Shown here: in pieces, positions 24,327 through 29,316 of the stretch
How positions within the stretch are numbered: position 1 is the first letter of the stretch
Layout of the letters: the number at the start of each line of letters is the position of its first letter
Source: Aquificaceae bacterium
Lineage (GTDB): Bacteria; Aquificota; Aquificia; Aquificales; Aquificaceae
DNA length: 63,927 nucleotides
Assembly: GCA_025062075.1 (NCBI GenBank)
Contig: JANXBA010000034.1
Span: forward strand, 1 to 63,927
Direction: 5' to 3'
Notes under the pieces: model-generated
The model's input: only the letters and a program-made list of their open reading frames with translations
What the model was told of the DNA's origin: nothing
Database searches by the model: none
Position numbers and translations under genes: made by a program

Positions 24327-24550
24327 CCCTTTAACGCTCTTGCCAGCAGGGCAAGAAGGTAGCCCGCCACGAGACCTGAGAAAAAGCTAAGGCTCACCAA
24401 AAAACCCAGCCCCACCTCAGGAAGGTGGTAGTAAACCCCTCTCACGACCGGGGTCAGGACCAGCTTCACCTTCTGGGGGTTCAGGAAGACCACGGTGCCG
24501 GACAGGCCCGCCACCAGCAAAAGCACAAGAGCACCGAGAAGAGCCTTCAC
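24323..24550 (-). CDS. LapA-domain small membrane protein
   Basis: A 75-residue protein with two TM helices (about 3-22 and 47-71). An F-x-N-P-x-x-V-x-L-x-L segment and LP-x-V-G-L-G-F-L-V-S-L-S-F-F-S-G lie between and into helix 2, the pattern of the LapA/YciS (DUF1049) family, linked in enterics to LPS assembly. It overlaps argH by 4 bases and is therefore co-transcribed with it. The functional assignment is weak at this length. Confidence 0.6.
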   Translation of the reverse strand: MKALLGALVLLLVAGLSGTVVFLNPQKVKLVLTPVVRGVYYHLPEVGLGFLVSLSFFSGLVAGYLLALLARALKG

Positions 24551-25923
24551 GGTATGCCCTCCTCCCTCTTTGCCACCTGGAGCCTTCTTAGGACCTCCTC
24601 CTTAGCGGTCCCTCCGTAGGTGCCCTTGCGGTCTGCGGACACCTGCGGGTCCAGAAGTCTCAGGGCGTCCTCCTCAAAGAGTTCGGAGAAGCGCCGGAGC
24701 TCCTCCAGGCTGAGCTCTTCGGGTTTTTTGCCCCTCTCCAGCAGGTAGGCGGTTATAGAGCCCACCAGGCGGTGGGCCTGGCGGAAAGGAAGACCTTTTA
24801 GCACCAAGTAGTTGGCAAGGTCAGTCATGAGCGCAAGGCCCCCGCTGGCACTTTTCATCCTGTCTTCTCTAAACTGTATGCCTTCCAGCACAAGGCTCAT
24901 GCCTTCCAAAGAACCCTTCAGGGTTTTGAGGCTGTCAAACACCGGCTCCTTGTCCTCCTGCAGGTCTCTGTTGTAGGCCGTAGGAAGAGCCTTGAGCACG
25001 GTAAGAAGGCTGACGAGGTTGCCGTAAAGCCTTCCCGCCTTTCCCCTGATGAGCTCCAAAAGGTCTGGGTTTTTCTTCTGGGGCATGATGGAACTGCCCG
25101 TGCACAGCCTGTCTGGGAGCTCCACAAAGCCAAACTCCTCAGTAGACCACAGAATCAGGTCCTCCGCCAGACGGGAAAGGTGCATGCCGCACACCGCGCA
25201 GGCGTAGAGAAGGTCCAGAAGGTAGTCCCTGTCCGCAGTTGCCTGCACCGAGTTCCTGCAAAGCCTGTTAAAGCGGAGGAGCTCCGCGGTGTAGAAGCGG
25301 TCCAAGGGGAAGTCCACGCCTGCCACCGCCCCAGAGCCCAGGGCCAGCGCATCCGCCGACCTGTATGCCTGTAGAAGCCTCCTCTCGTCCTCCAAAAACA
25401 TCTCCCTGTAGGCCAGAAGGTAGTGGGCAAGCCTTATGGGCTGAGCCCTCTGCAGGTGGGTATAGGCAGGCAGAAGGATATCTATACTCTCTTCCGCCAG
25501 TTCTACCAGTCTCCTGCGCACTTCTCCCAAGAGCCTGCAGACCTCGCGCACGCCGTCCTTTACGTAGAGCCTTTCGTCGGTGACCACTTGGTCGTTCCTG
25601 CTTCTGGCGGTGTGGAGCTTTCCTCCTACTTCACCCAGCCTTGATATGAGCTCCGCTTCTACGTTCATGTGCACGTCCTCTAACTCCCTCCTGAACTCAA
25701 AGCTCCCCTGCAGGACCTCTTTCTGGAGCTCCTGAAGACCCTGAAGAAGGCTCTGGGCTTCCTCTTGGGAGAGCAGGCCCGCACTCAGAAGGGTCTTTAC
25801 GTGAGCCATGCTCTGCTCTATGTCCCAAGGGGCAAGCTCTTTGTCAAAGTCAACAGACTGGGTGAAGCTCTCCACGAACTTGTCCGTCGCCTCTTTGAAA
25901 CGCCCTTCCCAAGGCTTTTGCAT
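24547..25923 (-). CDS. argH: Argininosuccinate lyase
   Basis: A 458-residue member of the fumarase/aspartase superfamily that splits argininosuccinate into arginine and fumarate. It has the N-terminal KPWEGRFKE, HTARSRNDQVVTD and the signature SSIMPQKKNPD. ATG 25923 gives the normal start (MQKPWEGRF); the longer in-frame extension has no family match. TATAAT on the minus strand ends 6 bases upstream with no SD, pointing to a leaderless mRNA. Confidence 0.97.
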   Translation of the reverse strand: MQKPWEGRFKEATDKFVESFTQSVDFDKELAPWDIEQSMAHVKTLLSAGLLSQEEAQSLLQGLQELQKEVLQGSFEFRRELEDVHMNVEAELISRLGEVGGKLHTARSRNDQVVTDERLYVKDGVREVCRLLGEVRRRLVELAEESIDILLPAYTHLQRAQPIRLAHYLLAYREMFLEDERRLLQAYRSADALALGSGAVAGVDFPLDRFYTAELLRFNRLCRNSVQATADRDYLLDLLYACAVCGMHLSRLAEDLILWSTEEFGFVELPDRLCTGSSIMPQKKNPDLLELIRGKAGRLYGNLVSLLTVLKALPTAYNRDLQEDKEPVFDSLKTLKGSLEGMSLVLEGIQFREDRMKSASGGLALMTDLANYLVLKGLPFRQAHRLVGSITAYLLERGKKPEELSLEELRRFSELFEEDALRLLDPQVSADRKGTYGGTAKEEVLRRLQVAKREEGIP

Positions 25924-25929
25924 GATAAC

Positions 25930-25935
25930 ATTATA
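25930..25935 (-). promoter_or_regulatory. -10 box, leaderless argH
   Basis: A perfect TATAAT on the minus strand followed by GTTATC and the ATG (6-base gap). A weak -35 CTGACT lies 18 bases upstream, within the inverted repeat at 25941-25960. Confidence 0.6.
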
Positions 25936-25940
25936 AAGGT

Positions 25941-25960
25941 GCTGACATGTGTCAGTCAGC
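25941..25960. promoter_or_regulatory. Inverted repeat, candidate operator between argH and the lipoate-ligase fusion
   Basis: GCTGACATGTGTCAGTCAGC contains CTGACA-TG-TGTCAG (perfect 6-base arms) and a wider GCTGAC...GTCAGC pairing. It spans the likely argH -35. Confidence 0.45.
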
Positions 25961-25974
25961 CAAGTCAAGGCCCG

Positions 25975-25988
25975 TGCTAAATTTAGCA
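25975..25988. promoter_or_regulatory. 14-base perfect palindrome upstream of the lipoate-ligase fusion
   Basis: TGCTAAATTTAGCA is a perfect palindrome 20 bases before ATG 26009. It could be a homodimer operator for the plus-strand gene. No gene lies in this 85-base spacer. Confidence 0.45.
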
Positions 25989-26008
25989 AAAACAAAAAGG
26001 AGGTAAGC

Positions 26009-28186
26009 ATGTGGCGGGTTGTATATACAGGCGCAAGGCCTCACCACGAGAACATAGCCTTGGACAGGATAATGTTGGACCTTATGGCGGAGGGGAAGAT
26101 ACCTCCCACCGTGAGGTTTTTGCAGTTCAAGCCAGAGTGCGTGCTGGTGGGCTTCCATCAGGCGGTGGAGCAAGAAGTAAGGCTGGAGTACACTCAGAGG
26201 GAAGGCATAGAGGTGGGCAGGCGCATAACGGGGGGCGGTGCCATCTACTTTGACGAGACCCAGATAGGCTGGGAAGTGATTGCCACTACCGAGCACCTTG
26301 GGAGCTCCTACGAGGAGCTGACCAGAAGAATATGCACGGGCGCTGCCAAGGGCCTGCAAAGGCTGGGCATAAAGGCGGAGTTCAGACCAAGAAACGACAT
26401 AGAGGTGGAGGGCAGGAAGATTTCGGGCACGGGCGGAGTCTTTGAGGGTAAGGCCTTCCTCTACCAAGGGACCGTGCTCATGGACTTTAACGTGGAGCGC
26501 ATGCTCAAGTCCCTGCAGATACCCGTGGAAAAGCTCACCTCCAAGGGCATAAAGTCCGCAGAGGACAGAGTAGAGTGGGTAAAGAGAGCTCTCGGCTACC
26601 TACCCCAGAAGGAGGAGGTCTTCAACGCCCTCTTGGAAGGGCTCAGAGAAGAGCTTGGCTTTGACTTTCAGTGGGGCGAGCTCACGGCGGAAGAGAAAGA
26701 GCTCTTAGAGTCCAGAAAGGACTACTACAGGAGCGAGGAGTGGGTCTTTGGCGTAAAGAAAGCACCTCAAGACAGCGAGATGCTCTTTGGCATATACCGC
26801 TGTCCGGGTGGGACCTTCAGGGTCTCCGCCAAGGTGGACCTCCAGAGCAAGGTGCTCCAGCAGGTGATGGTAAACGGCGACTTTTTTGTGAGGCCCCAGC
26901 GCCTGATTTACGACCTGGAGGCTTACCTCAAGCACACCCCCCTTCAGGAGGTGGAGAAAAGAGTGCGGGAGTTTTTCTCCCAAAAAGAGTGGGAGGGGCT
27001 AAACCTGAAGGTGGAGGACTTTGTAGAGGCAGTGCTCTTTCCCCTGCGTAAGGTGGAGGGCGCGGAGATAGGCATGGAAAAAAAAAGACTGAATAACATC
27101 ATCGCCTCCGTGGGGGGAGGGCTGGTGGAAAACCTCAAAAAGGCAAAGGTGATGCTCCTGCCCTACTGTGCCAAGCCCAGATGGTGCGACTACAGACACT
27201 TGGACGACTGCGGGGAGTGCGGGGGTTGCACGGTAGGGGACGCCTACAGACTGGCCTACCAAAAGGGCATGATTCCTATAACCATCACCTCCTTTGAGCT
27301 TCTCAGGGACACCCTTTTGTGGTGTGCCCAGAACGGCTACACCTACGTGGGTCACTGCTGTTATGAGTTCTACGAGAAGAGGTACGAGATATTCCGCAGG
27401 GCCTCGGAAGAGGGCGCCAACGGCGTGCTCTTTGACATTCTGGGGACCACCTGCTACAGTCTTGGGGTGGAGGAAGAGGAAAAGGCCTACCACGGGGAGT
27501 TCACTGTGGAGCTGGACCTTATAAAGGAAGACCTCTACCTGAGCCTGTCGGTAAAAGAGGACGCGCAGGAGCAGTCCCAGAGGTCGGAGCTGAGCTTTGA
27601 CTTCTCGCCCCACTTGGCGGACTTCAGGCCCAGCTACTACAAAAAGCCAAGGGCGGTGCCCACGCCTCAGGAAGACAGGACGAGAACCTCCATGCAGAGG
27701 GAGGTCTTCTTGGGCGAGGCCACCCTCGGAGAGCAGGTCGTAGGCTACTCAGAGGCTCTACAGACGCTCGCCCGCTGGATAAGGCAGGCGGAGAGACCTA
27801 CGCTGGTGGTAGGTCCCCTGCTCTTTTGGGACTTCGGGGAAAAGGAGCTCCAGGAGAAGGCCAAGGCCTTGAGAGAGCTGATAGAGAAGGTGGGCAGGTT
27901 TAATGTGAAGGTGCTACCCGACTACCGGCCCAAGCTCAAAAAGTACGACCCCTCCGTGGAGATGGACCCGCCCAACCCTCACCACGCGGTGCTTCACGGA
28001 GACCACGACCTGACGCTCTTGGTGGGCGTCCACTGCTACAGGACGGACTTCGTGATAAGACTGTTGAGAAAATACACCCAGACCAAGGTGGTGGCCCTCT
28101 GCGGGCTCTACGGACACCCTACCGCTCACCTGTCCACCAGCTTCACCAGTGCGGAGAAGATAGAGGACCTTGTCAAACTCCTTTAG
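26009..28186 (+). CDS. Lipoate-protein ligase A - DUF116 - CdhB-like fusion protein
   Basis: A 725-residue protein. Residues 1-250 form a lipoate ligase catalytic domain with RRITGGGAIYFD (71-82) and NDIEVEGRKISGTGG (129-143, catalytic K137). Residues 260-325 resemble the LplA accessory domain (GTFRVSAKVD; VNGDFF). Residues 350-505 form a DUF116 domain rich in cysteine (CAKPRWC, CGECGGC, HCC, TTC). Residues 575-725 resemble the CdhB/acetyl-CoA decarbonylase epsilon fold (LLVGVHCYRTD; GHPTAHLSTSF); this last call is tentative. GGAGGTAAGC precedes ATG 26009. It may ligate and process lipoate on GcvH-like proteins, including the LbpA proteins of the sHdr sulfur-oxidation pathway (inference). Confidence 0.75.
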   Translation: MWRVVYTGARPHHENIALDRIMLDLMAEGKIPPTVRFLQFKPECVLVGFHQAVEQEVRLEYTQREGIEVGRRITGGGAIYFDETQIGWEVIATTEHLGSSYEELTRRICTGAAKGLQRLGIKAEFRPRNDIEVEGRKISGTGGVFEGKAFLYQGTVLMDFNVERMLKSLQIPVEKLTSKGIKSAEDRVEWVKRALGYLPQKEEVFNALLEGLREELGFDFQWGELTAEEKELLESRKDYYRSEEWVFGVKKAPQDSEMLFGIYRCPGGTFRVSAKVDLQSKVLQQVMVNGDFFVRPQRLIYDLEAYLKHTPLQEVEKRVREFFSQKEWEGLNLKVEDFVEAVLFPLRKVEGAEIGMEKKRLNNIIASVGGGLVENLKKAKVMLLPYCAKPRWCDYRHLDDCGECGGCTVGDAYRLAYQKGMIPITITSFELLRDTLLWCAQNGYTYVGHCCYEFYEKRYEIFRRASEEGANGVLFDILGTTCYSLGVEEEEKAYHGEFTVELDLIKEDLYLSLSVKEDAQEQSQRSELSFDFSPHLADFRPSYYKKPRAVPTPQEDRTRTSMQREVFLGEATLGEQVVGYSEALQTLARWIRQAERPTLVVGPLLFWDFGEKELQEKAKALRELIEKVGRFNVKVLPDYRPKLKKYDPSVEMDPPNPHHAVLHGDHDLTLLVGVHCYRTDFVIRLLRKYTQTKVVALCGLYGHPTAHLSTSFTSAEKIEDLVKLL

Positions 28187-28194
28187 AGTTTTTT
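28175..28194 (+). terminator. Intrinsic terminator overlapping the stop codon
   Basis: AAACTC-CTTTA-GAGTTT with six Ts in total at its end. The hairpin covers the TAG stop at 28184-28186. The stem is AT-rich and only 6 bp, so strength at high temperature is doubtful. Confidence 0.45.
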
Positions 28195-28250
28195 CCAACA
28201 GCTTGTGGTATGGCTCTAAAGCCTTTGCGACTCTGCCAAAGGGTGGTGCA

Positions 28251-28256
28251 TATAGT
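28251..28256 (+). promoter_or_regulatory. -10 box, leaderless DegT-type aminotransferase gene
   Basis: TATAGT followed by 7 bases (GTAGTTT) and ATG 28264. No SD is present. A TTGCGA at 28225-28230 is 20 bases upstream, longer than optimal. Confidence 0.5.
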
Positions 28257-28263
28257 GTAGTTT

Positions 28264-29316
28264 ATGATAAGAATAGTAGAGCCTCGTTTTTCGGAAGAGG
28301 AAAAGCAGGCGGTTCTCCAGATACTGGAGAGCGGTCAACTGACCAGAGGCAAGTGGACTGCCCTCTTTCAAGAAGAGTTTGCCAGATACTTGGGGGTGGA
28401 CTACGTCTTTCCCGTGTGCTCGGGGACTGTAGCCCTTTTTGTAGCTCTCAAGGCGATAGGAGTGGAAGGGCAGAGAGTGGTCGTCCCTGCCATGAGCTTT
28501 ATGGCTACCATAGACGCGGTCTATCTGGCAGGCGGGATTCCCGTGGTGGTGGACGTGGATGAGTACTACACCATGGACCCGGACCAGTTGGAGAGGGCGG
28601 TGAGAAAATACCGGCCGAAGGTGGTAGTGCCCGTGCACCTCTACGGCCAGACCGCAGACATGGACGCCATTCTGTGGCTCTCGGACAGGTACGGCTTTTA
28701 CGTGCTGGAGGACTCCGCTCAGGCTCACGGGGCGGAGTGGAAGGGCAGAAGGGCGGGCGCGCTCGGGCATGTGGCCGCCTTTAGCTTCTACGCTTCAAAA
28801 AACGTGCCCATGGGCGAGGGCGGTGCGGTAGTCACCAGCGACCCCAAACTGGCACAGGAGGTAAAAAAGTGGATAGACTTTGGAGACCACCCCGCCTTTA
28901 ACGTAAGAATAACAGAGTTTCAGGCAGCCATAGGCTACTTCCAGCTCAGGAAGCTCCAGGAGAACAACCTCCGTAGAAGAGAGATAGCCCTGCACTACAT
29001 GCAGGCACTTAACGGAGGCTTCCTGCACCCTAAGGAGAGAAGAGGAGCCTTCCATGTCTACCACCTCTACACGCTACGTCATCCCCAGAGGGAGACCATT
29101 CTTCAGACCCTGAAGGCAAAGAGTATAGACGCCCGGGTTTACTACTCCTACCTCCTGCACGAGATAAGGAGAGCGGAGAGCCTACCCACTCCCAGGGCGG
29201 AGAAGTTCAAGAGAGAGGTCTTCTCCATACCCGTGCATCCCTACCTGACGGAGGAAGAGATAGACCTAATCGTAGATACCCTCCTGTGGGCGGTCGAGCT
29301 GGCCCCACAGCACTAA
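28264..29316 (+). CDS. DegT/DnrJ/EryC1/StrS-family PLP aminotransferase
   Basis: A 350-residue fold-type I PLP enzyme. It has GTVALFVALKAIG near 55-70, EDSAQAHGAEWKG (Asp that pairs with the PLP nitrogen), SFYASKNVPMGEGGA with the PLP Lys (the usual motif is SFxxxKxxxxGEGG), and an HPYLTEEEID C-terminus. Members aminate keto sugars for envelope glycans or antibiotics. The substrate cannot be deduced, since no sugar-modifying neighbour is present. It starts without an SD, 7 bases behind a TATAGT box. Confidence 0.9.
   Translation: MIRIVEPRFSEEEKQAVLQILESGQLTRGKWTALFQEEFARYLGVDYVFPVCSGTVALFVALKAIGVEGQRVVVPAMSFMATIDAVYLAGGIPVVVDVDEYYTMDPDQLERAVRKYRPKVVVPVHLYGQTADMDAILWLSDRYGFYVLEDSAQAHGAEWKGRRAGALGHVAAFSFYASKNVPMGEGGAVVTSDPKLAQEVKKWIDFGDHPAFNVRITEFQAAIGYFQLRKLQENNLRRREIALHYMQALNGGFLHPKERRGAFHVYHLYTLRHPQRETILQTLKAKSIDARVYYSYLLHEIRRAESLPTPRAEKFKREVFSIPVHPYLTEEEIDLIVDTLLWAVELAPQH

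Follow-up and report, generated by a model that had tools for sequence, protein, structure and literature searches.

A single gene in an Aquificaceae genome appears to join a lipoate ligase to a cysteine-rich domain and to a region resembling a CO dehydrogenase subunit. What would such a protein do, and to which route of lipoate formation does it belong? The gene lies on a stretch of 63,927 nucleotides (hereafter the window) from a heat-loving bacterium. A sequence-only reading had suggested that one chain might attach a lipoate precursor and help to mature it, for instance on LbpA proteins of the sHdr sulfur-oxidation pathway. LipS1 and LipS2 constitute a recently recognised and widespread route to lipoate, and we analysed the fusion with respect to both possibilities.

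Results

The gene and its distribution in Aquificaceae

The features of the gene are as follows.

26009..28186, + strand: complete LplA-DUF116-CO_dh fusion gene (725 aa plus stop)
26045..26644, + strand: lipoyl protein ligase catalytic domain, residues 13-212 (Pfam PF21948, LplA-B_cat, 9.4e-44)
within 26045..26644, + strand: catalytic domain motifs, RRITGGG at residues 71-77 and Lys137 within NDIEVEGRKISGTGG (motif alignment)
26798..27028, + strand: ligase C-terminal accessory (LplB-type) domain, residues 264-340 (NCBIfam LplB, 3e-12)
27104..27508, + strand: DUF116 domain, about residues 366-500 (PF01976, alignments, AF2 pLDDT 89.8)
27722..28159, + strand: CODH/ACS-epsilon-like CO_dh domain, residues 572-717 (PF02552, 1.6e-33, 116 bits, cut-off 21)

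In the window the frame starts with ATG 26009 and its stop ends at 28186, giving 725 codons. This start is favoured over the upstream alternative, GTG 25949, because homologues from many genera open with the same Met-Trp-Arg. The fusion protein is present in 55 of the 64 Aquificaceae genomes, and is therefore neither a product of chance nor of misassembly. Genome G014 encodes the ligase and DUF116-CO_dh as two genes that overlap by ATGA, and two adjacent open frames replace the single one in G018 and a few other Aquificaceae genomes as well. In G049 the ligase is accompanied by a free 151-aa DUF116 gene, the CO_dh tail is missing alongside, and the frame next to the DUF116 gene resembles a different gene. 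This arrangement indicates that DUF116 is the steady partner of the ligase and that the CO_dh tail is an addition. No conserved neighbourhood of the fusion gene was found between Aquificaceae genera, and its surroundings in this family are therefore uninformative as a clue. Genes for ArgH and a DegT-family aminotransferase flank it in the window (24547-29316) and in L138, and lie nearby in L047; the other genera lack this arrangement.

The ligase part

RRITGGG (71-77) and NDIEVEGRKISG (K137) are intact in the motif alignment. The motifs that define membership of the ligases, RRxTGGG and the catalytic Lys in NDxxxxGxKISG, are missing only in the fusions of Hydrogenobaculum; proteobacterial LplA-DUF116 proteins retain the catalytic Lys and have an altered GTGG loop. 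The ligase part matched NCBIfam TIGR00545 with 7.7e-50, which is under the 280-bit cut-off of that family, and the match of residues 264-340 to Lip_prot_lig_C (Pfam PF10437) was weak (0.0084). When an AlphaFold2 model of the fusion (pLDDT 85) was used in Foldseek, solved LplA structures matched across the whole ligase including the accessory domain, the best match being LplA-2 with lipoyl-AMP (8.9e-22). Pfam, NCBIfam, Foldseek and the aligned K137 thus bear out the earlier proposal of a lipoate ligase with an intact catalytic Lys and an accessory domain, and judged from its sequence the fusion is very probably an active lipoate ligase in the source bacterium.

The ligase domain groups with the ligases of LplA-DUF116 proteins, being 46% identical to those of Nitrospirae and archaea, and apart from the second LplA of Aquificaceae, with which it shares 28-30% identity. 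In the window's own genome this second paralogue (contig C30; L036, 5018-5836) has 272 aa versus 349 aa in relatives, and is without the C-terminal accessory domain.

The DUF116 part

For the protein alone, PF01976 matched residues 353-426 with 24.6 bits (cut-off 25), and 27.5 bits were obtained in the genome search; the profile matched all 35 aligned family members, with a best value of 3.5e-13. The DUF116 assignment is thus marginal for the single protein and firm for the family. Eight cysteines (C387, C393, C401, C404, C407, C450, C451 and C482), which include a CxxCxxC motif and a CC pair, are invariant in the 35 DUF116 sequences from several phyla, in agreement with the cysteine-rich DUF116 domain and the motifs that had been read from the sequence. 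Binding of an Fe-S cluster by this domain is putative and deduced from the cysteine pattern. Profile searches of 136 Aquificota genomes detected DUF116 in the fusion protein only.

The AlphaFold2 model predicts a confident alpha/beta fold for DUF116 (pLDDT 89.8), and no confident relative in the PDB was found by profile or fold. The best match, type II dehydroquinase, was considered as a fold relative and rejected (E 0.08, TM about 0.4), as the likeness is one of flavodoxin-like topology only. Makarova et al. (2015, PMC5898192) predicted DUF116 to be flavodoxin-like and metal-binding and, from gene contexts in methanogens, to have a role in electron transfer. M. jannaschii and M. acetivorans also possess DUF116.

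The CO_dh tail

The C-terminus had been read as CdhB-like. It is a genuine Pfam PF02552 domain but not CdhB proper, since it scored 23 bits against the cut-off of 101 of the CdhB equivalog TIGR00315. Its nearest relatives in the own genome (L034, 6440-7153, and L035, 9374-9943; 28-35% identity) lie upstream of porA/forA-type genes, and delta subunits of the five-subunit POR/FOR enzymes of Aquificaceae are relatives of the tail (PMC10052474). The possibility that the tail is a recent copy of the own POR/FOR delta subunit is unsupported, as they form separate long branches in a CO_dh tree whose archaeal outgroup is too distant for rooting. A replacement of LipT by the tail was likewise discarded, because LipT orthologues coexist with the fusion.

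The fusion follows LipS1 and LipS2 in Aquificota

We surveyed the 136 Aquificota genomes with profile searches for LipS1, LipS2 and LipA. The fusion was confined to one family, the Aquificaceae (f1). It occurred together with LipS in 54 genomes and alone in 1; LipS alone was found in 3, and neither in 78. The single fusion-only genome is a 75% complete MAG, and the three LipS-only genomes are drafts that are 86% complete or less. Among the Aquificaceae genomes that are at least 90% complete (n = 43), 38 contain the fusion, LipS1 and LipS2; the fusion and one LipS gene were found in 2 others, and the remaining 3, all belonging to genus g10, have none of them. Strong matches to LipS1 and LipS2 were thus limited to Aquificaceae and absent from g10, mirroring the fusion. 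The distribution of LipT also follows the fusion, with absence from g10 and gaps in some drafts. LipA is present in g10 and most Aquificaceae, as well as in f2 and f3, the other families that use lipoate. It was not found by profile search in the own genome or in Hydrogenobaculum (g5), both of which keep LipS and the fusion.

Genus g10 has a full shdr-lbpA cluster with LipA adjoining (L076), and is without the fusion, LipS1, LipS2 and LipT. The fusion therefore follows LipS1/LipS2 and not LbpA. This strict association fits the earlier idea that one chain serves attachment and maturation of lipoate, whereas the special link to LbpA of sHdr was not supported. The genome counts are not independent of each other, because they reflect roughly a single gain and a single joint loss (in g10), and the evidence from other phyla is stronger.

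The own genome encodes LipS1 on contigs C3 (28255-29064) and C47 (3811-4620), LipS2 on C62 and LipT on C23; one LipS1 copy lies inside an shdr-lbpA cluster (L068). Other genomes of the same genus have LipA. Its absence here and the short second LplA could reflect decay or an assembly break.

LplA-DUF116 proteins and lipS genes in other phyla

Genome contigs were scanned with the DUF116 alignment, a query that represents the LplA-linked subfamily and sets the scope of the scan apart from other DUF116 proteins. Relatives were detected in Proteobacteria, Nitrospirae, Chloroflexi, Actinomycetes, Bacillota, Desulfarculus and archaea. With few exceptions, those outside Aquificota join LplA to DUF116 in about 500-650 aa and have no CO_dh domain; the Nitrospirae protein is 524 aa long. 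In Nitrospirae (L151) the gene order is lbpA-lipS1-lplA::DUF116-lipT-lipS2, and comparable clusters are present in Actinomycetes (L172), Chloroflexi (L168, L176, L177), Desulfarculus (L175) and Bacillota (L174, L179). The gene between the fusion and lipS2 encodes a flavoprotein of the geranylgeranyl-reductase family, which we infer to be LipT, fitting the data of Tanabe et al. (PMC10332631). LipS1 (at least 195 bits) was detected in 19 of the 22 carrier genomes outside Aquificota, and LipS2 too (at least 183 bits) in 18. These are 22 and not 23 carriers, L138 (RFFP01000022.1) having been left out: it is titled 'Acidobacteria bacterium J001', but it was counted with the window's own genus, and the title is probably wrong. 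The expected linkage to lipS genes was thus found in other phyla but not in Aquificaceae, where no lbpA, hdr or lipS genes were found beside the fusion gene. Taken together, it is very likely that the fusion belongs to the LipS1/LipS2 pathway.

Sulfuricella, G141 and G144 encode a plain sLpl inside the lipS operon and LplA-DUF116 at another place, and the sLpl(AB) that was deleted in Hyphomicrobium has only about 360 aa (PMC10332631). The LipS1/LipS2 pathway therefore does not require DUF116 to be part of the ligase chain, and some versions of it may do without the domain.

Conservation of DUF116 beside a degenerate ligase

The ligase part of the Hydrogenobaculum fusion is degenerate: it shares 33% identity with the others, and the RRxTGGG and Lys motifs are lost. 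A separate, intact LplA gene is present elsewhere in the genome, and in the tree its product forms the sister branch of the fusion ligases. This stand-alone gene (L038, 8282-9756) overlaps fabZ by ATGA, possibly a link of the ligase with octanoate supply. The Hydrogenobaculum DUF116, however, shows about 88% identity, as between any other Aquificaceae; the CO_dh tail, by comparison, shows 65%. For the more distant Hydrogenobaculum pairs, dN/dS was low in DUF116 (0.02-0.03) and CO_dh (0.02-0.04) and higher in the degenerate ligase (about 0.14-0.15); these NG86 values are approximate, as they are based on few sequences with dS near 1. The last value indicates that the degenerate ligase part is still under selection, perhaps as a docking domain. 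The conservation of DUF116 next to a degenerate ligase indicates that DUF116 has a job of its own, likely within the LipS1/LipS2 pathway.

Discussion

A proposed role for the fusion

We consider it probable, with moderate confidence, that the fusion is a ligase that works with LipS1/LipS2 and carries its own Fe-S accessory module. In a first step the LplA part would, to judge from its motifs, fold and family, activate octanoate or lipoate as acyl-AMP, and then transfer the acyl group onto a lysine of GcvH/LbpA-type acceptors. As expected from the known LipS1/LipS2 chemistry, sulfur would next be inserted at C8 by LipS2 and then at C6 by LipS1; these insertions need a reductant and consume the auxiliary [4Fe-4S] clusters, and when the reducing system is a physiological one the enzymes complete only about 1-1.5 turnovers (PMC9585515). 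DUF116, with its eight invariant cysteines on a Rossmann/flavodoxin-like core, may bind one or two Fe-S clusters and relay low-potential electrons from LipT or ferredoxin to LipS1/LipS2, while the ligase part would hold or release the acceptor protein. More speculatively, the CO_dh tail, which is confined to Aquificaceae, might have been added for docking to the electron source, given its kinship to the delta subunit of the ferredoxin-dependent POR/FOR of Aquificaceae.

As the function of DUF116 we tentatively prefer an electron relay to the repair of clusters or to sensing. The main rival, which we regard as rather unlikely, is that DUF116 carries clusters or donates sulfur: with a [4Fe-4S] cluster of its own it would rebuild the auxiliary clusters that LipS1/LipS2 use up at each turnover, as NfuA does for LipA. 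Such a role would suit enzymes that draw their sulfur from these clusters and are spent after so few turnovers, it is compatible with the invariant CxxCxxC and CC cysteines, and electron supply is already covered by LipT. No likeness in sequence or fold of DUF116 to NfuA, IscA or other carriers was found, however, and the proximity of other DUF116 proteins to genes for sulfite/nitrite reductase speaks for electrons (PMC5898192).

In some genomes the gene stands apart from lipS. LplA-DUF116 adjoins UbiV, a protein of anaerobic ubiquinone synthesis, in L150 (8061-10486, confirmed by profile) and, by sequence likeness, in L156 (8058-10483) and L131 (4665-10570), with Acidiferrobacter-like and Sulfuricella genomes among these cases; this adjacency points to a possible second role of LplA-DUF116 in Proteobacteria. 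A cysteine-rich domain attached to a ligase, and a gene that is thus separated from lipS, would also be consistent with a redox- or iron-sensing ligase in which the DUF116 cluster is a switch and the link to LipS reflects shared habitat and ancestry. This is improbable, in view of the one operon order with lipS1, lipT and lipS2 across several phyla and the conservation of DUF116 next to a dead ligase.

Slightly less probable still is that the fusion is dedicated to lipoylation of LbpA for sHdr sulfur oxidation. Fusion-bearing Aquificaceae do have shdr-lbpA clusters with LipS1 inside (L068, L069, L073), and lbpA adjoins the fusion in several carriers elsewhere (L151, L171); but g10 combines shdr-lbpA with LipA and no fusion, in Aquificaceae the fusion gene lies apart from shdr, and the fetched flanks of the Desulfarculus and Chloroflexi carriers contained no lbpA or hdr genes. 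Finally, the kinship of the tail to POR/FOR delta subunits would allow the fusion to belong, as one of the subunits, to a CODH-, POR- or FOR-like complex, with the ligase secondary. This is very improbable: G049 and every LplA-DUF116 relative outside Aquificota do without the tail, the tail is less conserved than DUF116, and f2 genomes have a POR/FOR delta subunit and no fusion.

Returning to the Fe-S accessory module, a broader proposal, which we advance tentatively, is that the DUF116 subfamily is a dedicated Fe-S module of LipS1/LipS2 lipoate biosynthesis in bacteria and archaea, which might supply electrons or rebuild clusters on an acceptor-loading platform, the dead ligase of Hydrogenobaculum serving as a docking domain only.

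Novelty and implications

No description of an LplA-DUF116-CO_dh protein was found in the PMC literature, to which the search was confined, and within these bounds the earlier statement that no such protein has been described holds. Lipoate was not found in the PMC literature on DUF116, for which PMC5898192 gave the useful coverage. Tanabe et al. (2023, PMC10332631) discuss ligase fusions, of LplA with LplB, and DUF116 is absent from the text of that paper. DUF116 may realistically prove to be a new component of the LipS1/LipS2 pathway, and the cysteine-rich domain is probably an overlooked component of this route in many phyla. Fusion, operon and joint loss tie DUF116 to LipS1/LipS2 and give it a testable function, as a candidate for the missing helper in reducing and rebuilding the sulfur clusters that these enzymes sacrifice. 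A further domain is present in the Aquificaceae protein; elsewhere in this family it is known from the ferredoxin enzymes of the reverse TCA cycle.

Comparison with known systems

The fusion resembles sLpl(AB), the ligase of the LipS1/LipS2/LipT assembly route (PMC10332631), in its LplA catalytic and LplB-type accessory domains with the same motifs. It also co-occurs with the same partner genes, which outside Aquificota share an operon with it. It differs in carrying DUF116, plus the CO_dh tail in Aquificaceae, where its gene is moreover unlinked to lipS. The bifunctional LplA-LipA fusion (NCBIfam NF053790) likewise joins a ligase physically to a lipoyl-synthesis partner, but that partner is a radical SAM synthase, whereas DUF116 is without a radical SAM domain. 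With DUF116 / COG1852 / arCOG02078 (PMC5898192) the window protein shares the CxxCxxC motif and further conserved cysteines, the predicted flavodoxin-like fold and the PF01976 match; the archaeal proteins of that study have two N-terminal TM segments, while the window protein is fused to a ligase. Its tail has the PF02552 domain in common with CdhB and the POR/FOR delta subunits of Aquificaceae (PMC10052474), but differs from these in being fused to a ligase, in forming its own branch of the tree and in scoring far under the CdhB equivalog cut-off.
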